Notes: generated by a model from the sequence alone, not told the origin. A stretch of DNA of 64,000 nucleotides from an uncultured Pseudanabaenaceae cyanobacterium (GCA_938002085.1 CALLAT010000112.1:23688-87687); one strand, 5' to 3'. Counted from the stretch's first letter, positions 6,802 through 56,612 are shown. Program-made: numbers and translations.

Positions 6802-7022
6802 GGGGCGATCGCAATGCCTGGCTGGGGTCTTGCTTCAGCCTAGCAACGGTCATTCTGCCCCGGTCCGCTTGTAACGGGTTTGCAGTGCTTTGTCTTGAAC
6901 AGCAAGGTTTAGCCGAAACTTAGCGGTGCAGACAGTTTCCAGTCTCAATAAAATACTGCGTGATCAATACAAACGATCTATGATTGGCTAGTTCTCACCC
7001 ATTGAGCAGTTGCGCGATCGCC

Positions 7023-7523
7023 ATGGAACTGGAAGTCATCGACTTTGAAGGCAAGGTAGTGTTGGGCATTGACCCAGCGATCGCTTCCATCGGCTACGCA
7101 GCCATTTGTGATGAGACTGTGCTGGATTATGGGGTGATCAAGACTGACTCCAAAACCAACCTTTCTGTCAGGCTACGACAAATCTATGACGACGTTTGTG
7201 AGCTTTGCAGCATCGTCAAACCCGATGCTGTGGCCTTGGAGATGCCTTTCTTCAATCGCGAGAACACCAATGCCAACAAGGTGTTGCGGGCGCTGGGCAT
7301 TATTCAGATGGCTCTGGGGGATTGTGGCTTGCAAGAGCCAATCTTTTTGCACCAGTCCCAGGTGAAGTCGTCGGTGGCTCAGTATGGGGCGAGCAAGGCG
7401 GAGATTCAGGAGTCAGTGGCGTTTTTGTTCAAGCTGGATAAGATCCCAAAGCCTGATGATGCTGCGGATGCCTTGGCGATCGCCTACGCTGCCCAGATGG
7501 GCGTTCGCGCCAATGTGAAGTAA
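7023..7523 (+). CDS. RuvC-like Holliday junction endonuclease
   Basis: RNase H-fold acidic motifs GIDPAIASIGYA, ALEMPFF, PDDAADALAIA; start chosen at MELEVID. Confidence 0.75.
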   Translation: MELEVIDFEGKVVLGIDPAIASIGYAAICDETVLDYGVIKTDSKTNLSVRLRQIYDDVCELCSIVKPDAVALEMPFFNRENTNANKVLRALGIIQMALGDCGLQEPIFLHQSQVKSSVAQYGASKAEIQESVAFLFKLDKIPKPDDAADALAIAYAAQMGVRANVK

Positions 7524-44716: not shown

Positions 44717-46564
44717 ATGGTTGCCTCATCCCGCAATGTCCATCCCAAAATCCTGAAGCAGTTTCAACATCTGTTGGGCTCTATTCAGTTAGCTGTGCCA
44801 TTGTTGGTGGCCATCATTGGTGTTTTGGTTGGGGCGACATTTTATGAGTCTCAGGTGGGGTCGCCCACCGTTCAAAACCTGATTTATAAGAGCCATTGGT
44901 TTGGGGCCTTGATGTTTTTGCTGGCGGTGAATCTGTCGGTGTCGGCCCTCTCTCGCTATCCCTGGCGCGGTCCTCGCAAGATAGGTTTTGCCCTGACCCA
45001 CTTTGGCTTGGTGGTCTTGATTGCGGGCTCGGCTGCGGTGATTCACATCAGCACGGAGGGGATGCTGCTGGTGCGGACGGACCAGGGCGCGAACCGTTTG
45101 GTGCGGGTGGAGGGCGAGTTGCTGGATTTTGTGGGGCCAGAGGGGCAAGAGCAGCAATTCAATCTATTTATCAAGCCAGATAATACGGTTTCGCCTAGCC
45201 AGGCCGGCGACTTAGAGCTGCTGCGCTATGGCGAGAATGTGATTACGACGACGAATTTTGTTGAGCAAGGGGAGGTAGCGAATTCGGCGGTGAAGTTGCA
45301 GTTGCAGAGCGATCGCATGAACCAAACCCTGGAGCGCTGGCTGGCAGTTGCGCCAGCATCCTATAGCGAAGTCTCGGTTGGTCCAGCAACCCTGCAAGTC
45401 CAGCAGGCCCAGTCCGAAGCTGAACTAAAAGCCATGCTGGCTGCACCACCTAAGGCGGGCGACATTCCCAAGTTCGGCACCCTGTTGCTGGATTCGGGTA
45501 AAACTATTGATGTGGAGCAAAGCCAGGGACAGCTGATTGAGCTACCCGGTGGCGCTGACATGGTCATCACCCAAGTTTGGCCAGACTTCCGTCTCAACAG
45601 TGACAACCGGCCTGAAACGGCTTCTGAACAATTCAATAACCCCGTGCTTCAGGTCGCTTTGCGGGATGGAGAAAAAGAAGCCCGCTGGTTTGTCTTTGCC
45701 GAAGGCGGTTTTGAGCCGGTCAAGACGACGGTGGCGGGTGAGCCTTTGGATGCAAAGGCGTTGGGATTGGCCAATCTCAGTTATGAGGTTCAGCCCCAAC
45801 CGTTAGAGGACTACTTCCGAGTTGTCATTGCACCGGATGGGAGCCGCTTCTACGCTGCCAACTCTTCTAAAGGCTTCAAGTCTGGCCCCTTTGAGGCGGG
45901 CGAAGCCGTCACTCCCGGCTGGGCAGACTTCCGCATTAGCCTGGCGGACAGCCTCGACCATGCCGTGATTAATCGCGAGGTGGTAGAGGTCCCAGAAGAT
46001 GAAGGCTTGCAGGGTGAACCTGCCCTGCTAGTCCAAACGCCCGATGGTTCTCAGCAGTGGCTGCCCTGGGGCGAGGCCACGACTCTTAGTGATGCTGACG
46101 GAGACTATTACGCATCCTTTAGCGCTCAGATGCTGGAGTTGCCCTTTGGGGTCAAGCTGGAAGACTTCATTGTCGAGCGCAACGAAGGCAGTGAATCGGT
46201 GGCGATGTGGACGAGCCAAATTCGCCTGGATGATGCTCAAGCAGGTCCTCAAGAGAGCCGTCGCGTTTGGATGAACCACCCCACTTGGTACCAGGGCTGG
46301 AAAATTGCCCAGGCTTCTTGGAATCCCGGAGATCTCAACCAGTCCACCCTGCAAGTGAAGCGAGAGCCCTGGTGGGTGACGGGGCTGACCTGGTTGGGCT
46401 CGTTGATGGTGGTTGTGGGTACAGCAGTCATCTTCTACGGTCGCAGTGCGATGAAGAATCTCAAGGCTGCGTTGCCGGAGGAGAAAGATGAAGCGGTTAG
46501 CGCCGAGGCTGCCGCTGTGCCGTCGGCTCAGGCGAAGGGGCTTGATGCTCCGTTGTCGGTTTAG
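44717..46564 (+). CDS. ResB/Ccs1-like cytochrome c biogenesis protein
   Basis: N-terminal TM pair GSIQLAVPLLVAIIGVLVGATFYESQ, IGFALTHFGLVVLIAGSAAVIHISTEG, large periplasmic region, C-terminal TM; followed by a ccsA-like gene. Confidence 0.8.
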   Translation: MVASSRNVHPKILKQFQHLLGSIQLAVPLLVAIIGVLVGATFYESQVGSPTVQNLIYKSHWFGALMFLLAVNLSVSALSRYPWRGPRKIGFALTHFGLVVLIAGSAAVIHISTEGMLLVRTDQGANRLVRVEGELLDFVGPEGQEQQFNLFIKPDNTVSPSQAGDLELLRYGENVITTTNFVEQGEVANSAVKLQLQSDRMNQTLERWLAVAPASYSEVSVGPATLQVQQAQSEAELKAMLAAPPKAGDIPKFGTLLLDSGKTIDVEQSQGQLIELPGGADMVITQVWPDFRLNSDNRPETASEQFNNPVLQVALRDGEKEARWFVFAEGGFEPVKTTVAGEPLDAKALGLANLSYEVQPQPLEDYFRVVIAPDGSRFYAANSSKGFKSGPFEAGEAVTPGWADFRISLADSLDHAVINREVVEVPEDEGLQGEPALLVQTPDGSQQWLPWGEATTLSDADGDYYASFSAQMLELPFGVKLEDFIVERNEGSESVAMWTSQIRLDDAQAGPQESRRVWMNHPTWYQGWKIAQASWNPGDLNQSTLQVKREPWWVTGLTWLGSLMVVVGTAVIFYGRSAMKNLKAALPEEKDEAVSAEAAAVPSAQAKGLDAPLSV

Positions 46565-46629
46565 GGCAGATCGCTGATTGGTTTGGCTACAGGTTTTGTT
46601 TTCAGTCCCTTATGGTTCGCGCGATCGCT

Positions 46630-48378
46630 ATGAAATTCCTAAAATTCCTAATCGGCTTTACCCTCGGCCTGATGCTGCTGGTCTTGCCCCTTAGCCAATT
46701 CCAGGCTGGCCCCCTGGCTCCGCTGCAATCCCTAGCGGTGCAGATCGACGGGCGCAAAAAGCCTCTGGATACTGTGGCGCTGGAGACGGTGCAAAAGCTC
46801 CATGGTTCGGCCAGCTACAAGCAAGCCGATGGCTCCAAGCTGGACTATCTGCAAACCTACTTTGCCCTCGCTTTCAACGATCGCGATTGGAACAACGAGC
46901 CCTTCCTCCTCTTTAGCTATCGCCCGCTCAAAGAAGAAGTGGGCTTCAACCCGGAGCAAAAGTACTTCAGCTTTCAGGAGCTGCTCTCCTCTAAGTCCCT
47001 GAGCCAGGTGATCAACCGAGCCCATGCTCGCGAGATAGCGGGGGAAGACCTATTTCGCCTGGAGCGGGAGGCCCTGTCAATTGAGGACCGTGCGACACTG
47101 CTCTATCGCACCGTGGGAGACAATAGCCTGCCTCTCGTGCCCCATCCCAGCGATGCCAAGGGAACTTGGGTGACGATTGAGAATGCTGCCGAGCTGTATC
47201 CCCCTGAAACCGCAGCGGACCTGATGGCCTTGGAGCAGCAGGTTCAGCAGGGCTATCGCTTTGGAGCAGCGCACTTGGACTATGTAGGGCAGTTGGGCGG
47301 CAAGTTAAAACAGTCTTTGGCTGAGCTGAGCCCGATGGTCTATCCCAGCGATGCAACCCTCCAGCGCGAAGTCTTCTATAACCACTTCCACCCCTTCGGC
47401 AAAGCCTGGATGATCTTTGGTCTGGGCTTCCTGGTGATGCTGGCATCCCTCTGGTTCAAGCCCCTGGAGCTGTACGGCAGTGCAATCGGTCTGGCCGCAG
47501 CAGGTTTAACGACGGAGGCCTATGGTTTCATTTTGCGGATGCAAATCGCGGACCGTCCTCCTGTCACCAACATGTATGAGTCAGTCATTTGGGTGAGCTT
47601 TGGGGTTATTGCTCTAGCCCTGATTTTTGAACTGACTTCTGATAAAGCCCGCTACTATCTGCTCTCCGCTTCGCCAGTTGCCGTCGTTTGTTTGCTCTTG
47701 GCCGATCGCCTGCCGGTGGTGCTGGACCCCAGCATTGCGCCCCTGGTGCCGGTGCTGCGCGATAACTTTTGGCTCAGCATCCATGTCCCGACGATTACCC
47801 TGGGCTATGCCGCCTTTGCCCTGGCCATGGGCTTGGGTCATGTTTCCCTTGGCCATTACCTGTTTGCTAACCCTGCCAACCCCACGGTCAAAAAGCGTCT
47901 GCAAACCCTGTCCCAGTTCAACTACCGCACGCTCCAAGTGGGGGTGTTGCTGCTGACCACTGGCGTCATCCTGGGCGGCATTTGGGCGCACTTCTCCTGG
48001 GGCCGTTTTTGGGGCTGGGACCCGAAGGAGACCTGGGCTTTGATTGCCTTGCTGTGCTACTTGGTTCCGCTCCACGGTCGCCTAGTGGGTTGGATCGGCA
48101 ACTTTGGCATTAACGTTGCTGCTGTGGTGTCATTCAATGCAGTTTTGATGGCCTGGTATGGGGTTAACTTCGTCCTAGGGACTGGCTTGCACAGTTATGG
48201 CTTTGGTACGGGTGACTCCCAACTCATTGTGGCAGCGGTGGTTGTGGCTGACTTGGCGATCGTGGCCCTGACGGCCCTGCGTCATCGCAGCCGTAAGCCC
48301 TCGGGGCAACCCTTGATTATTGAAGAGGTCACGCTCTCTGAAGAAGCCATCCAAGCCATGGCGAGCGAAGCCCAGTAA
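46630..48378 (+). CDS. CcsA-like cytochrome c synthase subunit
   Basis: WWD motif WGRFWGWDPKETWALIALLCYLVPLHGR, multiple TM segments, extended N-terminal periplasmic domain. Confidence 0.9.
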   Translation: MKFLKFLIGFTLGLMLLVLPLSQFQAGPLAPLQSLAVQIDGRKKPLDTVALETVQKLHGSASYKQADGSKLDYLQTYFALAFNDRDWNNEPFLLFSYRPLKEEVGFNPEQKYFSFQELLSSKSLSQVINRAHAREIAGEDLFRLEREALSIEDRATLLYRTVGDNSLPLVPHPSDAKGTWVTIENAAELYPPETAADLMALEQQVQQGYRFGAAHLDYVGQLGGKLKQSLAELSPMVYPSDATLQREVFYNHFHPFGKAWMIFGLGFLVMLASLWFKPLELYGSAIGLAAAGLTTEAYGFILRMQIADRPPVTNMYESVIWVSFGVIALALIFELTSDKARYYLLSASPVAVVCLLLADRLPVVLDPSIAPLVPVLRDNFWLSIHVPTITLGYAAFALAMGLGHVSLGHYLFANPANPTVKKRLQTLSQFNYRTLQVGVLLLTTGVILGGIWAHFSWGRFWGWDPKETWALIALLCYLVPLHGRLVGWIGNFGINVAAVVSFNAVLMAWYGVNFVLGTGLHSYGFGTGDSQLIVAAVVVADLAIVALTALRHRSRKPSGQPLIIEEVTLSEEAIQAMASEAQ

Positions 48379-48447
48379 GGCCCCGCGAGGTCCATAGGTT
48401 CAGTTTTGGCTGAGCCCTGTTCTACTTTCATTCTTTAATTCATTGCT

Positions 48448-48954
48448 ATGGAACGTCGCAAATTTCTCTCTTGGTTGGGCGTTGGTGCATTAGCAACTTC
48501 TTTGCCCACGGTTTTGGCGGCTTGCTCTAGCACTTATGAAACCAGCACTGATTCTGTTGATACCAGCACCGAAAATATCATCACTAGCGACGACCCGATT
48601 CAGTCGGCAAAATCAGAGATTAGTGAGACCCCAGATGCGGATGGCTTCTACTCGGTGGGCACCTTAGCTGCGGTGGCCGCAGGGGGAGCGATTACTTCCA
48701 AGAAGTTTTCTAGTGCCTCTGGGGCATTGATTGTGGTTCAAGACCCAGCCAACCCTGAGGGAGTGGTGGCCCTCGATGCTCGCTGTACTCACCAGGGCTG
48801 TGCTGTTGATTGGGAAGATGGCAGCTTTGTTTGTCCTTGTCATGCCTCTGCCTTTGCCATTGATGGTGCCGTAGAGAAAGGCCCGGCCACAGAGCCTTTG
48901 GGAGTCTTTGAGACCAAGATTGAAGGCGACCAAATTTTTGTCAAACCGGCCTAG
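48448..48954 (+). CDS. Rieske 2Fe-2S protein with Tat-like signal and lipobox
   Basis: [24 protein letters not shown] cluster-binding motif; N-terminus [26 protein letters not shown]. Confidence 0.9.
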
Positions 48955-49093
48955 CCTTGAGCCCTAACGATGATGCAGAGACAGACTGTGAGGCTTTCGC
49001 AGAGATTGATCCCGTCTATTTTCTGTTGCTCACGATGGTCTTTGCATCTCACCCCTTACGCTATTTTTGTCTCCTGTTGTATTGGCTAAGGCT

Positions 49094-50020
49094 ATGTCCC
49101 AGCTTTCCTCTGAACAAGTCCTGGCGGCGATCGCGATGTCCCAGTCTCTGCGTAAGCATGAGTTGAGTCGCATCGAGCTGTCCCAGCAGAGCATTGCTGG
49201 GGGCGACTTTACGGAGGCCTATATGCGATCTGCGAATTTAGCAGAGAGCCACTGTGAGGGCACGAACTTTACCGAAGCCACGTTGATTTGGGCGAATTTG
49301 ACCGGGGCGAATTTGACCGGGGCAAAGCTGGAGCGATCGCTGCTCACTTGCGCCCTGTTCAAGCAAGCGAATTTGCGCGGCGTCCATGCCAGCCATGCCA
49401 ACTTTACCGGGGCGGATCTGGAGCGCATGGATGGCTCGGAAGGCTGCTTTGATGGGGCTGATTTCCAAGATTCCAAGGGTTGCCACAGCTGCTTTAAAGG
49501 CAGTAGCCTCCAGCAGTCCAAAGGCGTGGGGGCGGACTTTAGCTGGGCCGAGATGGCCGAAGCAAAGCTCCAAGCCAGCCGTTGGAATAATAGTAATTGG
49601 GTGGCGGTACAACTAGAGGCCGCTAACTTGGAGAAGGCTCAATTTGTGGGCTGCGATTTGTCCGAGGCCAATCTCTCTCGGGCCAACTGTCTCAATGGCA
49701 AATTTGCAGGCGTTCGGCTTCACAGCGCTGATTTGAGTGGTGCTCAACTGGACTGGGCTGACCTGTCCACAGCTAATCTGCGCCAGGCAAAGCTGGTTAG
49801 AACGTCGTTGTTCAATGCCAGCTTGGAGCGGGCTAGTTTGATGGATGCGGACTTGTCGGGGGCGAATTTGCGGGATGCCAGTTTGGAAGAGGCGAACTTG
49901 GCGGGGACCTGCTGGGATGAGGCGATCGTGACGGGAGCTGTGTTTACGGATTCCCAAGGACTAACGCCAGAGCAGAAGCTATGGCTGCGGGAGAACGGCG
50001 CGTTGAATGTGCCGAAGTAA
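49094..50020 (+). CDS. Pentapeptide-repeat protein
   Basis: Repeated A(D/N)LxxA motifs (ANLTGANLTGAKLERSLL, ADLSGAQLDWADLSTANLRQAKL). Confidence 0.9.
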   Translation: MSQLSSEQVLAAIAMSQSLRKHELSRIELSQQSIAGGDFTEAYMRSANLAESHCEGTNFTEATLIWANLTGANLTGAKLERSLLTCALFKQANLRGVHASHANFTGADLERMDGSEGCFDGADFQDSKGCHSCFKGSSLQQSKGVGADFSWAEMAEAKLQASRWNNSNWVAVQLEAANLEKAQFVGCDLSEANLSRANCLNGKFAGVRLHSADLSGAQLDWADLSTANLRQAKLVRTSLFNASLERASLMDADLSGANLRDASLEEANLAGTCWDEAIVTGAVFTDSQGLTPEQKLWLRENGALNVPK

Positions 50021-50067
50021 TTGGTTCGCTTGCTTAGGAACGCGAATTTAATAAGACCGAATTTACC

Positions 50068-50179
50068 GTAGGGGTAGGGTCTCCCTACCCTCATCCTTGT
50101 CCAAGGTCAGGGAAACCCAGCCCCTACATGACGATTCGCGGCCCAGGGCGGGGAAACCCCAGCCCCTACGTGACGATTT
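50068..50179. repeat. Compound GTAGGGG-type intergenic repeat cluster
   Basis: GTAGGGGTAGGGT...GGGAAACCCAGCCCCTACATGACGATT...GGGGAAACCCCAGCCCCTACGTGACGATT between convergent genes. Confidence 0.75.
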
Positions 50180-50219
50180 AAGATGAACGGGATTTTCGGT
50201 ATCAATAAATTGCGATTCC

Positions 50220-51245
50220 TTAGGGGCTGAGCCAAAAGTAATCCGCAATGCCACCTTCGCCCCCCTGGGCCATCGTTTCCGAGGGATTGAGTAGAACCGT
50301 GGTGTGTTGCAAGTCTGAGCCCAAGCGACGCGCCACCCGGTCCGGAATGCCCCAGCCATGCATAATATGGCCCTGCCCCGCTAGCACAACAACGGTATGG
50401 TCTGGGTTGTTCTGAGCAAACTCTGCCACGGTCTCCGCCATGGTTTCATCCCACAGCACCTGGGCCGAAAAGAAGCGCTCAAAGGCCGCATCCATGGCTT
50501 CCGGGTCCATGTCCTTTGAAGCATGGCCATGGCCGTGGTGGCCCATAAACACGCTGGCGACCCAACTGCGATATTCCACGTTGTTGAGGCTGATCTCTTC
50601 CAAGGGCGGAATCTGAGCCAGGGCTTCGTCGTCTAGGCTCTCAAATCCTTCGCGAGCGACCTGGCGGGTCAGCTCCTGGGGCGTGTTGGCGGCGAGCAGG
50701 GGCAACCCCTGAGCCTTGCCGTAGCTGATGATGGGCTCATACAAGGCCCAGTCAAAGCCCCAGCGTTCGTCGTACTCGCTGTCGCGGCGCAGGCTGTCGG
50801 CATCAATTTTGCCTGCGCTGTAGTCGTCCAGGACGGATTGGAAAGGGCGCTGGAACATCTCAAAGGCGATCGCCACCTTCTTCCCATCCGCTTCTCCCTG
50901 CGCCACCAAAGCTTGAATAATCTCCAACTGAGCCTGGTGATCCAGCTCGCTATCGTGACGCTCCCCGAGATACACCACACGGGATTCGCTGAGCGCCTTG
51001 AGGATAGTGGCGCGATCGCTCGCTTCACCCATTACAGTCTTTGCTTCCGTATTTGATTCTGCCTCAGCAGATTGGGCCTCGGCCTCCACAGCCACCTGGT
51101 TTTGGGCGGGCAAACTGGATTCTGCAGGCAAAATCTTACAGCCCGTCGTCACCAAACAGAGCAGAACCAGCAAAGCCCAAGGGCCGGAGCGTTGACGCAG
51201 AGGGATAACAGGCAAGGGCTTTGTTCCTTCGAAGAGACGAGGCAT
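50220..51245 (-). CDS. ChaN-like lipoprotein (heme-binding uptake family)
   Basis: Lipobox VTTGC; YLGERHDSELDHQAQLEIIQALVAQ, EMFQRPFQ, GHHGHGHASKDMDPEAMDAAFERFFSAQVLWDETMAE, VLAGQGHIMHGWGIPDRVARR. Confidence 0.85.
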   Translation of the reverse strand: MPRLFEGTKPLPVIPLRQRSGPWALLVLLCLVTTGCKILPAESSLPAQNQVAVEAEAQSAEAESNTEAKTVMGEASDRATILKALSESRVVYLGERHDSELDHQAQLEIIQALVAQGEADGKKVAIAFEMFQRPFQSVLDDYSAGKIDADSLRRDSEYDERWGFDWALYEPIISYGKAQGLPLLAANTPQELTRQVAREGFESLDDEALAQIPPLEEISLNNVEYRSWVASVFMGHHGHGHASKDMDPEAMDAAFERFFSAQVLWDETMAETVAEFAQNNPDHTVVVLAGQGHIMHGWGIPDRVARRLGSDLQHTTVLLNPSETMAQGGEGGIADYFWLSP

Positions 51246-51263
51246 ATCGTGTCGTTGGCGTAG

Positions 51264-51284
51264 GGACATGGCACTGCCATGTCC
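51264..51284. repeat. Palindromic repeat GGACATGGCA-C-TGCCATGTCC
   Basis: 10-bp perfect arms around one base, directly abutting the MITE TSD. Confidence 0.8.
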
Positions 51285-51286
51285 TA

Positions 51287-51419
51287 AGAGGTTGTTTGAG
51301 AAAGGCATCCAGCTGTAGCAGGATGACCTACGACGCGGCTTAAGTTAACGAGCTTTCGGTGTTTTGTTAAGGCTCAAGGTAGTAAATTTGATGCTTAGCC
51401 AAATTCTCAAACAACCTCT
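51287..51419. mobile_element. MITE-like element, 133 bp, 16-bp TIRs, TA target duplication
   Basis: TA-AGAGGTTGTTTGAGAA...TTCTCAAACAACCTCT-TA; related to 31586-31716. Confidence 0.88.
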
Positions 51420-51634
51420 TACGAATATTGTTGATCAGACCACCAGCAATAGGCCAACGTGGGCACCGCCGTGGCTAGCAAAATCACAATGGCACTGGCG
51501 CCTGTGCTCTGAATCCACCAGGTATCGGCAAAGCCCACCCACAGCGCCAATAGCCCTTCTCGGCTACCCGCCAGCTCCAGAAATTCCAGGAGGGTGAGCA
51601 GACCCAACAGCAAAAATTTAATTGAATGGCTCAT
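51419..51634 (-). CDS. Small membrane protein
   Basis: ~71 aa with two hydrophobic segments; start chosen at MSHSIKFLL; stop codon at the MITE junction. Confidence 0.6.
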   Translation of the reverse strand: MSHSIKFLLLGLLTLLEFLELAGSREGLLALWVGFADTWWIQSTGASAIVILLATAVPTLAYCWWSDQQYS

Positions 51635-51688
51635 GATTAACTCCTCATTCACTAGAGCGCGCGATCTTCAGTATTCAAGACGGTGGGC

Positions 51689-52216
51689 TTAGGAAAGGTT
51701 TGAGGTGGACAGCGATTGGGCCAGGTTGCCATCGTCTTCCAGCAAAGGCGCGATCGCCCGATCCAACAGCTTCCCCGGCACCCGCCCCACAAATTCCTCC
51801 TGCACCTCACCCTCAGCCGTCAGGGTCAGCAGGTGGGGAATGCCCGTGACGGAATATTGCCGAACCGCTGCCGCCGCCTGGGCATCGTCGATATTGACCA
51901 TGACAAAGTTGATGCGATCGCCATAATGACCGTGCAGCTCCGTCACTACAGGAGCCATAGATTGGCAGCTACTGCACCAGTCCGCATAAAACTCCAGCAC
52001 CGTAGGCTTTTCATCGGCCATTGCTTGGTCATAGGGCACGGATTGCTGAGCCATCGTCTTTAGCGCCATCAGGCCTTTGACCGGCGACAGGGAGGCGGCT
52101 ACGGCGGGGGGCGCTAGGCTCAGGGCAAGACAAAGGGCGATCGCAACGGTGATGAAGAGGCGCTTAGCTTGCCGATACCAGGGCGAATGGAATTGCGTTG
52201 AGTTTGAACAAGTCAT
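51689..52216 (-). CDS. Exported/membrane-anchored thioredoxin-like protein (HCF164/TxlA type)
   Basis: Hydrophobic N-terminus, VLEFYADWCSSCQSMAPVV active site, cis-Pro GIPHLL. Confidence 0.85.
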   Translation of the reverse strand: MTCSNSTQFHSPWYRQAKRLFITVAIALCLALSLAPPAVAASLSPVKGLMALKTMAQQSVPYDQAMADEKPTVLEFYADWCSSCQSMAPVVTELHGHYGDRINFVMVNIDDAQAAAAVRQYSVTGIPHLLTLTAEGEVQEEFVGRVPGKLLDRAIAPLLEDDGNLAQSLSTSNLS

Positions 52217-52273
52217 AAATCAGAACGGTTAAGGGGCGATTCGGACTAGGGCCTCATCACATCTGGCATGGCT

Positions 52274-52888
52274 TTAGGCATAGAAATAGACCATAAAAAT
52301 ATGGAAGCCCAACATGACAAAAAACATAAAAGTGAAAAAGATATGGGTCGATAGCCAAATCGCCCGCATATCGCGAATTAAGGGTCCCTTCGAAAATACT
52401 CCAAACGGTAGTTTTTGAGGCTTCATCTCTGGCGTAACCGGCACCCAACCAAAATACTTTCTCGGGGATTCAAGCACGCCCGTTTCAGCAACCACTCCCA
52501 CCAGAGCAGAAATAGAAGTGCCCCAAAAGACCCACATCAGGGCCGCATTAAAATTAACGCCCGTTGTCCCCACAGTGTGAAGCATCACAATCCCAACCAA
52601 ACCCACCCCAGCAAAAACATGGAGACTGCGCCAAATTAAAATGGAGCCGGGTAGCTTAATCTTCCACTTCCGACCTCGCTTACGGAGCGTTAAAGCAATC
52701 TCTGACAGTACAAAAGCTAAACTGACAAAACCTGTCACTTGCTTGTACAAATTTCCCCTTAGAAACTCATGGATCTCAAAGGCTTGGGCCTGGAGTTGAG
52801 GCATGTATAGCCCACTAAAGACAAACGGCATCAACAACAATGCCGTCACGAAAGTTAAGAGAATAAGCGTTGAGAATCGAGGCTTCAT
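52274..52888 (-). CDS. Multi-TM protein, predicted diheme cytochrome b-like
   Basis: Two HX13H motifs: HVFAGVGLVGIVMLH and HIFFTFMFFVMLGFH within hydrophobic helices. Confidence 0.7.
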   Translation of the reverse strand: MKPRFSTLILLTFVTALLLMPFVFSGLYMPQLQAQAFEIHEFLRGNLYKQVTGFVSLAFVLSEIALTLRKRGRKWKIKLPGSILIWRSLHVFAGVGLVGIVMLHTVGTTGVNFNAALMWVFWGTSISALVGVVAETGVLESPRKYFGWVPVTPEMKPQKLPFGVFSKGPLIRDMRAIWLSTHIFFTFMFFVMLGFHIFMVYFYA

Positions 52889-52923
52889 GGAAACTGAAGT
52901 GTCAGCAAAGACAATTTAAGAAG

Positions 52924-52949
52924 AGAGCGAGCTTTTGAAGGCTCGCTCT
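52924..52949 (-). terminator. Hairpin between the Tll0287-like and cytochrome b-like genes
   Basis: AGAGCGAGC-8 nt-GCTCGCTCT. Confidence 0.5.
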
Positions 52950-53022
52950 AAAACGTTAATCCTGGGTCAGGGGATTAATAGCTTGGAATTAGCAAAATTC
53001 GTAGTTGCTAATGGTTGCAAAA

Positions 53023-53694
53023 TTATGCAGCTTCATCCAAAGGAATGTTGATGATGATTCCGCCCATAACATCACCCATTTCAAACACCTTGTCGGGATA
53101 ACGCTCTAGGTGAGTGGGGTGAGTGTTGTGACAAGTCACGCAAGCTTCTGCCACTGCTTTGTCTGGATAGAGCGCGGAGAAATAAGGCTTGCCAGCAACT
53201 TCCTGGTATTCCTTATAAGGTTCGCCGGTATCCACAATGGATTGAATAGCAGTCTTCTCAAACTCAGTTCTGGGCTCGTGGTTATCGTTGATGTACCAAC
53301 TAGACAAGAGCTGATAAGTAAAGGGACTGCCATCAGAAGCAATCTCCGAACCAAGGCGGAACATTTGAGCAGGCAGCGGAATGCCATCGGTTTGCTGCCA
53401 AGACTCGGTTGCCTCCACGTCGATCACGCCATCTGGCTTATCTTTACCTTCCAGCGTCTTGAGACGGTTAATAACATGCTTCGTGTAAGCGGTGCGATCC
53501 GCTTCCATCACAGCGTGAATATAGTCCGCGACGATGTCTGGGGCGATGCCTGCCGCCGCCACAGGAGTCGAGCCGCCGCCAGAGCCACCGGCACAGGAGA
53601 CTGCTAGAAAACAAACTGCGATGGCCATGGAGACCATCCCAATGGTTTTGGCCTTTAACCGACTAAACCAATTTGATGAACTGTTCGCACGCAT
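53023..53694 (-). CDS. Tll0287-like (DUF3365) mono-heme c-type lipoprotein
   Basis: Lipobox LAVSC, single CVTCH, SALYPDKAVAEACVTCHNTHP...GDVMGGIIINIPLD. Confidence 0.8.
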   Translation of the reverse strand: MRANSSSNWFSRLKAKTIGMVSMAIAVCFLAVSCAGGSGGGSTPVAAAGIAPDIVADYIHAVMEADRTAYTKHVINRLKTLEGKDKPDGVIDVEATESWQQTDGIPLPAQMFRLGSEIASDGSPFTYQLLSSWYINDNHEPRTEFEKTAIQSIVDTGEPYKEYQEVAGKPYFSALYPDKAVAEACVTCHNTHPTHLERYPDKVFEMGDVMGGIIINIPLDEAA

Positions 53695-53788
53695 TATCTT
53701 CGCAATCCTTTGGTTGAACGCAACAGGTGTTAGAACTCAAATCAAATGTGAAAAAATCTTTGAGCAATCTTGAGGGAGTGAGTTTTGG

Positions 53789-54589
53789 TTATTTCCCTTC
53801 TCGCTTTTCTTGAAGAACTCTAACCATGTCAAAACTCTTTAGATGAATTTCTGGTGGTCTAGAAAAGTTTGAATTAACCAGCTCATTGTCAAAGATACTA
53901 TTGAAGGCGTATTCCATTCCGTGGCAATTCATACAAACTTCGCTAGCCATGCGATCTCTTGGCTTTAAATTGTAGGTATTGTTGTGGTTTACGAATGTAT
54001 TTTTGCCTGATTTATCTGCTTCTCTTTGTAAGTGGCAAGTGGAGCAAGTGACCGAAGCATTAGAAGGTCTTTCAATATTTCCTTCTGCCAAGAATGACTG
54101 GCTATGTTTTGAATTTTTGTAGTTCAAAGAATGCTCATCATTGTGACAAGTTAGACAAGAGTCCACAGAGGCTTGATAGGTATCAACAGAATGAACGTTG
54201 TGGCAAGCATTGCAATTCATTTGCTTGCTATGGGCCTCGGGCTTCATGGCAATTCTTGCCTTGGTGGGCGTGAGTGGAGTTTGGCCTTCTCGTAGGCGAA
54301 TGCCATGCTTGCCAAGTAGGAAGGTATCCGTCTCTCCCTCGTGGCAGCTCTGGCAGCTTTCGTAGTTTGGCTTCTCGACAAAGGCCTTTGTTTCACTGTC
54401 TTGGTGGCAACTGGAGCAGTTGACGTCGGCCAAGGCATGGGCGCTCGGTTTCCACTGGGCCGTGATCTCGTTGAGTTCCGCTTCGGTAATACTGTCTGCT
54501 TGGGCTGGCAAACTGGCCGTTAGACTTAGGCCGAGGGAAAGGGCCAGGGATAGGGTGATAGAGAAGGCGATCGCCAATAACTTCTTCAT
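53789..54589 (-). CDS. Periplasmic hexaheme c-type cytochrome
   Basis: Signal peptide plus six CXXCH: CSSCH, CQSCH, CNACH, CLTCH, CSTCH, CMNCH. Confidence 0.9.
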   Translation of the reverse strand: MKKLLAIAFSITLSLALSLGLSLTASLPAQADSITEAELNEITAQWKPSAHALADVNCSSCHQDSETKAFVEKPNYESCQSCHEGETDTFLLGKHGIRLREGQTPLTPTKARIAMKPEAHSKQMNCNACHNVHSVDTYQASVDSCLTCHNDEHSLNYKNSKHSQSFLAEGNIERPSNASVTCSTCHLQREADKSGKNTFVNHNNTYNLKPRDRMASEVCMNCHGMEYAFNSIFDNELVNSNFSRPPEIHLKSFDMVRVLQEKREGK

Positions 54590-55239
54590 GTCCCACCTCC
54601 CAAAAACTCACTTTTCAAATCGGGGCTAGGGGCCGTTTCTAATTGAGCCTCAACCACAATTTCTGGAACGGTCTGCACGGGCAGCATCGGCGGCTGGTCT
54701 AAGTTGTCGTACAGGAAACCCGTGGAAATGGAGCGATGGTCATGGTAGTTATGACAGCCTGCGGTCCAGCAACCATCCGCCGTAAAGCCCTCGTGGCTGG
54801 TCATTTCACCCGTGATGATGCCCTCGTGGCAAGCCATGCAAAGGTCTGGCTGGAGATGAACGCCCCGGCCATACATTTTCACATGCTCGCCATGGCAGGC
54901 TGTACAGGTCAGAGCATCCAGCTTTTCTAGCTTCTCGGCCCAGCGAATATCGCGAAACTTCTTGTCACCATGGATATCTTGTTCTAGCTCTGCTTCATGG
55001 CAACGGTTGCAGGTTTCATTGGAGACTTTTTTGAACCCCTCGTGGCAGGAAGCACAACTGGCTTCAAAGCCTAAATGACCTTCAGAGGTGACGCCCGGCA
55101 GAAAGATTGCTTTTTGCTCCGTCGCCATCGTCATGGTGGCAACTAGCCAAACTAGAAGAAAGACAACTGCTCCTCCAATGATGGTTTTGATATTAATGAA
55201 GGACTTGAGCCCTCGACCTTTTCCCGATCTAGAAGCCAT
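54586..55239 (-). CDS. Membrane-anchored multiheme c-type cytochrome (4 CXXCH + 1 CX4CH)
   Basis: N-terminal TM IIGGAVVFLLVWLVATMTM; CASCH, CNRCH, CTACH, CMACH and CWTAGCH; ATGA overlap with the next gene. Confidence 0.9.
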   Translation of the reverse strand: MASRSGKGRGLKSFINIKTIIGGAVVFLLVWLVATMTMATEQKAIFLPGVTSEGHLGFEASCASCHEGFKKVSNETCNRCHEAELEQDIHGDKKFRDIRWAEKLEKLDALTCTACHGEHVKMYGRGVHLQPDLCMACHEGIITGEMTSHEGFTADGCWTAGCHNYHDHRSISTGFLYDNLDQPPMLPVQTVPEIVVEAQLETAPSPDLKSEFLGGGT

Positions 55240-55514
55240 TGAAGAGAGTCATCGAAGATAAAAGATAAACGCGATCGCCCTATTCCCGCTATGGCTAAAC
55301 TGCATGAGAAAGCAGAATGGCTCTAGTCAAAAGACTGGATATACTAGGCGCTTTCTAGCTCTAAAGCCTAGGTCTAGGACTTGCCTGAACCTAGGGAAAA
55401 TCAGCGAGTTAAAAACTGCTGAAATCATCTTGAATACTGTGGAATTCTGTCTTGAATAAATGAGAAATACGCTTCTGTGGATATCGCCCATTGATTCAAT
55501 AAATGATTCAGTCT

Positions 55515-56612
55515 CTAGAGCAGAATGAACAAGAAAATCACTGCAACGAGTCCTACAACACCACCTGCTACAGGCAACACTGGAAAGTTAGAACTTTCCT
55601 CCTGACTCACCTCACTATGCATTGGCCCCCCACTGGGGGTAGCAGGCTCAGGAGCTGGAGGCGTCACATTGGGCAAGCTTGGCTCAGCCGGAGCAGCCGG
55701 AGCCGCAGACTCTAACTGAACGTCTTGTTGAGAGTAATCAGCCCCTTCCAGCATCAATGCCGTAATGGCTCCGTAGGCCTCCACCCAAGCGTTCTTGGTG
55801 GTTTCGGTCCAGTCCGCGCCTAGATACTGTTCAAAGGTTTTGAGCAAGCTATTACCCACCAACGGATAGTGCTCTGGCAAAGCGCCATATTTGACATGGC
55901 GAGCCCCCAACCCGCCCAAGGCCTTGCTTAAAACCTCTGGCTTGCGAAGGTTCTCCACGACCATGACGAGGCCGCCCTTAAGCATTTGCCCCTGGCTCTT
56001 CATATTGGTGTGTTCAAACAGAGGCTTCGCTGCTGGATAGTCCGTGAAGAGGTTGTCATAAAAGCTCATCACAAACTCATCAGCTTGGGGAGCAACCTTC
56101 CCAAAGCTTTCTTCTAAAAGGCTTACATTAAGCCCGGCTTCTTCTTCAGATTCTGAAGGCGTCTCTGCAGGTACCGGAGCGTTGTCTAGATCTACCTCGG
56201 AGCTGCTGTAGTCAGCCCCTTCCAGCATGAGAGCGGTGATGGCTCCGTAAGCCTCAACCCAGGCTGTCTTTGTTTCCTCCGTCCAATCCTCTTTTAGATA
56301 CTGTTCAAAGGTTTTGAGCAAGCTATTGCCCACCAATGGATAGTGCTCAGGTAAGGCCCCATATTTGACATGGCGAGCCCCCAATCCGCCTAACGCCTTG
56401 CTCAAAACATCGGGATTGTTGAGGTTCTCCATCACCATGACAAGCCCCCCTTTGAGCATTTGCCCCTGCTTTTTCATATCACTGTGCTCAAACAGTGGCT
56501 TAGCAGCGGGGTAATCGGTGAAGAGATTGTCGTAGAAGCTCATGACAAAATCATCAGCTTGGGGGGCGACTTTGCCAAAACTCTGCTCTAGCAAATCAAC
56601 TTGCAACGACAT
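55515..56612 (-). CDS. Tandem two-domain globin (flavohemoglobin-type globin fold) with C-terminal TM anchor
   Basis: Two near-identical domains ...FVMSFYDNLFTDYPAAKPLFE...GGLGARHVKYGALPEHYPLVGNSLLKTFEQYL..., then PVLPVAGGVVGLVAVIFLFILL. Confidence 0.88.
   Translation of the reverse strand: MSLQVDLLEQSFGKVAPQADDFVMSFYDNLFTDYPAAKPLFEHSDMKKQGQMLKGGLVMVMENLNNPDVLSKALGGLGARHVKYGALPEHYPLVGNSLLKTFEQYLKEDWTEETKTAWVEAYGAITALMLEGADYSSSEVDLDNAPVPAETPSESEEEAGLNVSLLEESFGKVAPQADEFVMSFYDNLFTDYPAAKPLFEHTNMKSQGQMLKGGLVMVVENLRKPEVLSKALGGLGARHVKYGALPEHYPLVGNSLLKTFEQYLGADWTETTKNAWVEAYGAITALMLEGADYSQQDVQLESAAPAAPAEPSLPNVTPPAPEPATPSGGPMHSEVSQEESSNFPVLPVAGGVVGLVAVIFLFILL

Follow-up and report, generated by a model that had tools for sequence, protein, structure and literature searches.

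How bacteria re-reduce those of their haemoglobins that have no reductase domain is still an open problem; the title of one study (PMC2323109) names the reduction of haemoglobin as a limit on NO dioxygenation in vivo. In ferric reductases and NADPH oxidases, two helices bear paired histidines with a spacing of about 14 residues. A haemoglobin tied to nitrate assimilation is known from Bradyrhizobium, where a single-domain haemoglobin and a flavoprotein encoded in nrtABC / narK-bjgb-flp-nasC detoxify NO arising from nitrate assimilation (PMC4724949). The Tll0287 family of heme proteins, now named sCache_heme, includes a signalling member that binds NO tightly and a stand-alone Tll0287-type protein that looks redox-active and binds NO weakly (PMC12889525).

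Here we describe a genuine island of electron-transfer genes, inherited together and uncommon among cyanobacteria, at positions 44717-56612 of the window, i.e., the whole analysed stretch of 64,000 nucleotides from an uncultured Pseudanabaenaceae cyanobacterium (Table 1). It is a conserved and apparently undescribed electron-transfer unit, no account of the gene set having been found in the literature, judged mostly from titles and the beginnings of abstracts. Each gene named by a first-pass annotation is an open frame at its given position, most with Pfam support, including resB, for which the given ATG start is better than a longer TTG frame because homology begins close to position 44717; the pentapeptide-repeat gene and that of the 77-aa membrane protein had been omitted.

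Table 1. Genes of the island, with positions in the window and the features on which their assignment rests
Feature	Position	Strand	Evidence and role
ResB/Ccs1-like cytochrome c heme-ligation protein	44717..46564	+	Pfam ResB 2.7e-14; dedicated copy, accessory/maturation
Long CcsA-like heme-ligation protein, 588 aa	46612..48378	+	Cytochrom_C_asm 7e-32; accessory, maturation
Tat-type Rieske lipoprotein	48448..48954	+	Rieske 4e-10; CTHQGC...CPCH motif; lipobox; accessory
Pentapeptide-repeat protein	49067..50020	+	Pfam Pentapeptide 5e-46; recurrent neighbour
ChaN-like heme-binding lipoprotein	50220..51308	-	ChaN PF04187 4.8e-72; accessory
77-aa small membrane protein	51419..51652	-	Hydrophobic stretches 11-29, 51-69; recurrent neighbour
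Exported thioredoxin (WCSSC)	51689..52216	-	Thioredoxin 9e-19
Predicted transmembrane diheme cytochrome b, 204 aa (core)	52274..52888	-	4 invariant His in two pairs, each spaced by 14
Tll0287-like (sCache_heme) monoheme c lipoprotein (core)	53023..53694	-	PF11845 4.2e-21, CXXCH, lipobox
Exported hexaheme cytochrome c (core; one half of 11-heme wire)	53789..54589	-	6 CXXCH + 6 distal His
Pentaheme cytochrome c with membrane anchor (core; other half of wire)	54586..55239	-	4 CXXCH + 1 CX4CH
Tandem globin, C-terminal membrane anchor (core partner)	55515..56612	-	Two Globin domains 1.6e-37

The core consists of five genes on the minus strand (52274-56612), in the order globin, pentaheme, hexaheme, Tll0287-like lipoprotein and cytochrome b, with a 4-base overlap of the pentaheme and hexaheme genes at the hexaheme start. 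Since four genes (resB, ccsA, Rieske and pentapeptide) lie on the plus strand and the remaining eight on the minus strand, the island is not a single operon and comprises at least two transcription units. Its flanks are ordinary (alaS, gamma-glutamyltranspeptidase, xseB/xseA and recA), and a plasmid search was negative. The cyanobacterial host is represented by a partial genome assembly (62.6% complete, 176 contigs), in which two more globin genes lie outside the island, on contigs C71 and C133.

A hexaheme search identified carriers in 3/292 cyanobacterial genomes, host included, which bears out the earlier impression that such multihemes are rare in this phylum; a search of species genomes retrieved 8 cyanobacterial and 5 gammaproteobacterial loci. 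Contrary to expectation, the multiheme protein is more frequent in Gammaproteobacteria, being present in 37/392 genomes of the order to which a Spongiibacteraceae carrier (L016) belongs. A sample of 349 Pseudomonadota genomes yielded 3 with it. In a tree of 40 multiheme sequences the cyanobacterial members form one group (support 100/100). All five core genes occur together in 11 cyanobacterial loci, and likewise in the 5 gammaproteobacterial loci from species genomes, wherever the contig is long enough, and the recurrence of this five-gene block in two phyla argues that it is more than chance. Conservation of gene order in relatives, proposed at the outset as a test of the island, was therefore found and the claim stood, except that its restriction to a cyanobacterium proved too narrow: there are cyanobacterial carriers, among them the cultivable Leptolyngbya sp. 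Heron Island J, but most known members are gammaproteobacterial.

Within Cyanobacteria, resB adjoins the multiheme block in 8 loci (the window counted); the pentapeptide-repeat gene, which also recurs in the relic loci described below, is present in 8 and the thioredoxin gene in 7. ChaN neighbours the core in loci L006, L007 and L048 and is present in both relic loci, and the 77-aa protein has homologues in L006 and L007. In L048 (genome G170) an additional globin gene (6831-7361) lies between those for thioredoxin and cytochrome b.

The hexaheme has the six CXXCH sites that had been counted in it, and the pentaheme, previously given as "probably five", has four CXXCH and one CX4CH; because the relative L096 has an ordinary CXXCH in place of CX4CH, five is the correct count. 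The pentaheme has an N-terminal membrane anchor and the hexaheme a single, signal-like N-terminal hydrophobic stretch; in gammaproteobacteria the two are fused into one protein of 10 CXXCH and 1 CX4CH. An alignment of 40 multiheme sequences contains 22 heme Cys, 11 proximal His and 11 other conserved His, i.e., five invariant distal His in the pentaheme part and six conserved ones in the hexaheme part, the whole set being kept except for a single one absent from a single sequence. One conserved distal His per heme makes a bis-His wire the simplest reading of the 11-heme protein, which looks like a wire rather than an enzyme. Met214 of the hexaheme is, besides the heme ligands, invariant in 40/40 sequences. 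Pfam matches are to Cytochrom_c3_2 and MtrC-like models for the hexaheme (4e-11, 8e-10) and to Cytochrom_c3_2 for the pentaheme (7e-7); the AlphaFold model of the hexaheme has a pLDDT of 50, and the matches of its profile to octaheme and NrfA enzymes in the PDB are limited to CXXCH-rich stretches. A multiheme nitrite reductase of NrfA/OTR type was considered and rejected, because every site is CXXCH or CX4CH with its conserved distal His, leaving no open (non-His-capped) heme site and no CXXCK equivalent.

The cytochrome b carries four invariant His in 13/13 sequences, as two pairs spaced by 14 on two helices, a pattern that fits a transmembrane diheme protein with one heme predicted near each membrane face. 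It has no match above cut-off in Pfam/NCBIfam, the bc1/b6 family included, and its AlphaFold model (pLDDT 72) gave no Foldseek match below E = 0.001. In gammaproteobacteria it is usually the C-terminus of a [2Fe-2S] protein with Pyr_redox_2, Rubredoxin_C and Fer2_BFD domains, the reductase part of which most resembles the N-terminal region of NirB (NAD(P)H/FAD/[2Fe-2S]); in L096, BFD and FAD_binding_6/NAD_binding_1 domains precede it. A separate case is L083 (6974-8152), where cytochrome b is fused to GPP34 (Golgi phosphoprotein 3-like) in place of a flavin reductase. A Rieske/cytochrome b quinol oxidase of bc1/b6f type, the electron source first envisaged, is not borne out: the cytochrome b shows no relation to bc/b6, the Rieske protein is an accessory (in 6/9 cyanobacterial neighbourhoods, none seen in gammaproteobacterial loci), and in gammaproteobacteria the visible source of electrons is NAD(P)H, through FAD and [2Fe-2S].

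The gene of the Tll0287-like lipoprotein adjoins the multiheme gene in 39/39 gammaproteobacterial loci. Its alignment contains no conserved Cys apart from those in CXXCH and the lipobox, and conservation therefore does not extend to the Cys that is reported as an axial ligand in Tll0287; a PDB search with its profile led to nothing.

The fifth core member is a gas-binding protein whose identity varies among lineages. The cyanobacterial globin is a tandem with a C-terminal membrane tail (residues 345-363 in the host), which is present in 8/9 cyanobacterial relatives, the ninth having a single globin without tail. Aligned globin domains share invariant Tyr27, Gln49 and His81, which we take to be globin positions B10, E7 and F8. 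A gas-binding protein is encoded near 30/39 gammaproteobacterial loci (19 globins, 5 truncated haemoglobins and 6 hemerythrins), and these partners thus appear to be interchanged; the other 9/39 loci have none adjacent, some of them ending at a contig edge. In one gammaproteobacterial clade (L065, L067, L081, L082, L085 and L087) a hemerythrin-like gene lies directly upstream of the conduit, replacing the globin, and in several of these loci, by sequence reading, citrate synthase and succinate dehydrogenase genes adjoin. In L062 (11271-12708), L056 and L077 a truncated haemoglobin gene followed by that of a [2Fe-2S]-FNR reductase lies beside the cassette, and nrtABC adjoins it as well in L056 and L077.

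A second recurrent context is nitrate assimilation. Nitrate genes (nrtABC, narK, nasT) are found no more than about 8 kb from the cassette in 10/39 gammaproteobacterial loci, the other 29 having none adjacent; in a crude chance model that gives each locus a 1% probability of being close to one nitrate locus and ignores relatedness, at least 10/39 has p ~5e-12. A single cluster in L076 combines narK, nitrate reductase, nirB, a NirD-like gene, nasT, nrtABC and a porin, then the cassette, and this wider cluster is the only one with a nitrate reductase near the cassette. nirD is present in 34/37 cassette genomes against 244/355 others (p = 0.002 by Fisher test, without correction for phylogeny). 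The idea that the cassette substitutes for NirBD was accordingly discarded, and the retention of nirD in those 34 genomes indicates that the cassette comes in addition to NirBD. Around the cyanobacterial cassettes no adjacent nitrate gene was recognised, and no flavoprotein is encoded there.

We consider it about an even bet (probability roughly 0.5) that the core is a transmembrane electron conduit paired with a gas protein and devoted to NO/nitrogen-oxide defence tied to nitrate/nitrite metabolism. The cytochrome b, the penta/hexaheme and the Tll0287-like protein would form a conduit across the cytoplasmic membrane, in which two b hemes, stacked within the membrane, would exchange electrons with a far-side chain of 11 bis-His c hemes, along a path that would end at, or run through, the Tll0287-like heme protein. 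This conduit would partner a cytoplasmic or membrane-tethered diatomic-gas protein, predicted to be a tandem VHb/flavohaemoglobin-type globin here; the gammaproteobacterial counterpart would be a single globin, a truncated haemoglobin or a hemerythrin. We infer redox activity and the direction of electron flow for a conduit that may keep its presumed client, the globin, reduced for the dioxygenation of NO, the presumed substrate, and/or feed periplasmic NO/nitrite chemistry; in cyanobacteria a donor is postulated. Defence against NO and nitrogen oxides is proposed on the basis of the Bradyrhizobium Bjgb/Flp logic and of the NO-binding or redox-active sCache_heme members (PMC4724949, PMC12889525). 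Several observations speak against this reading: the 29 gammaproteobacterial loci with no adjacent nitrate genes and the 9 with no adjacent gas-binding protein, the cyanobacterial cassettes that have neither a recognised nitrate gene nor a flavoprotein beside them, and the weak NO binding of the stand-alone Tll0287-type protein (PMC12889525). A single reaction using both ends is not obvious either, since the globins face the cytoplasm and the 11 hemes the periplasm.

The same components may also be read as an outward reductase, passing electrons from NAD(P)H in gammaproteobacteria, or a low-potential donor in cyanobacteria, to periplasmic or soluble extracellular Fe(III), nitrite or NO, the globin or hemerythrin being a separate O2/NO safeguard. 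The NAD(P)H-FAD-[2Fe-2S]-diheme b series does resemble ferric reductase/NADPH oxidase logic, the wire is on the periplasmic side, and many gammaproteobacteria also carry monoheme c and porin genes alongside; we nevertheless regard this as unlikely given the gas-binding partner of 30 gammaproteobacterial loci, the tail-anchored globin of cyanobacteria, the lack of any recurring iron-transport family noticed among the neighbours, and 11 hemes that all look bis-His, leaving no catalytic heme in the wire. Still less probable is a role in O2/redox supply or sensing, with a globin that stores or delivers O2 as in Vitreoscilla, or a Tll0287 protein that senses redox or NO, and a wire that sets redox poise: the globins are VHb-like, hemerythrin occurs as an alternative, and there are NO sensors among sCache_heme domains (PMC12889525), but the core has no fused signalling domain and 11 strictly conserved bis-His hemes are more than a sensor needs.

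Extracellular electron transfer through an Mtr-type conduit, one of the functions originally suggested for the island, appears very improbable. Its appeal lies in the combination of a multiheme bis-His wire (11 hemes, 11 distal His) with a membrane cytochrome b and in weak profile matches to MtrC and DmsE/OmcA-type models. These matches, however, reflect spaced CXXCH motifs; no outer-membrane barrel-cytochrome pair is found among the core or recurrent neighbours; and the gammaproteobacterial porin (Opr/Alginate_exp type) goes with the nitrate transporter genes and is missing from many loci. With globin or hemerythrin and nitrate assimilation as the recurring context, nitrogen-oxide/gas handling accounts for the island better than extracellular electron transfer does.

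The neighbouring maturation genes support the earlier notion that the island brings its own machinery. Two CcsA matches, the long form of the island and a shorter one elsewhere (about 250-365 aa), are found in 7/8 carrier genomes, the remaining assembly having the long form only; in the host the shorter, housekeeping one (about 340 aa) lies on another contig. Long CcsA occurs in 5/292 cyanobacteria, three being multiheme carriers and two lacking multihemes. The latter two look like relics of the island: G054, which retains resB, a ccsA that carries a stop, Rieske, ChaN, pentapeptide, thioredoxin and cytochrome b, interspersed with genes read as transposases, and G211, which retains ccsA, thioredoxin, ChaN and pentapeptide. 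This co-retention with carriers (p = 2e-6, few genomes) supports a dedicated maturation role. The extra ResB/CcsA, the thioredoxin and perhaps ChaN would thus probably serve heme loading of the island cytochromes, with the thioredoxin (WCSSC) probably acting in apocytochrome/disulfide maturation and the ChaN-like lipoprotein possibly in heme handling.

More tentatively than the nitrogen-oxide defence proposed above, these loci may represent an undescribed conduit class common to Cyanobacteria and Gammaproteobacteria, in which a diheme b and an 11-heme wire would power or drain interchangeable gas-binding proteins, i.e., a membrane haemoglobin reductase linked to nitrate assimilation. A conserved membrane wire beside globins, truncated haemoglobins or hemerythrins is a candidate for haemoglobin re-reduction; if so, an oxygenic phototroph would gain an 11-heme cytochrome system together with the machinery to mature it, and periplasmic electron wires would be tied to nitrate assimilation in proteobacteria.

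Like System II maturation (ResB/Ccs1-CcsA), the island has matching ResB and CcsA domains with a thioredoxin nearby, but its second, long CcsA is confined, in our sample, to island carriers or relics. With the multiheme conduits (Mtr, NapC/NrfH, DmsE) it shares membrane-anchored chains of bis-His c hemes, whereas its multihemes have no family match to NapC/NrfH, its 5+6 architecture of 11 hemes fits no named family, and it has no catalytic or outer-membrane partner. The lipoprotein resembles Tll0287 (DUF3365, sCache_heme) in its PF11845 match with CXXCH and differs in missing the Cys axial ligand reported for Tll0287 (PMC12889525). Ferric reductases and NADPH oxidases have a similar His-pair spacing and, as in gammaproteobacteria, a flavin reductase that faces the cytoplasm; neither sequence nor fold comparison gave a match to them, however, and the gammaproteobacterial form has a NirB-type FAD module with BFD [2Fe-2S] and its output to 11 hemes c. 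The Bradyrhizobium Bjgb/Flp unit (PMC4724949) shares with the cassette systems a globin of Hmp/VHb type that has no reductase domain of its own, an NAD(P)H flavoprotein, a nitrate ABC transporter and NasS/NasT; the unit contains no transmembrane cytochrome b, multiheme wire or Tll0287 protein, and the island cassette in turn has no NasC. The residues that we assign to TyrB10/GlnE7/HisF8 are found here too, but the globin is mostly tandem in cyanobacteria instead of single, and the adjacent NAD(P)H flavoprotein is absent from the cyanobacterial loci, whereas in gammaproteobacteria a related module is fused to the cytochrome b.
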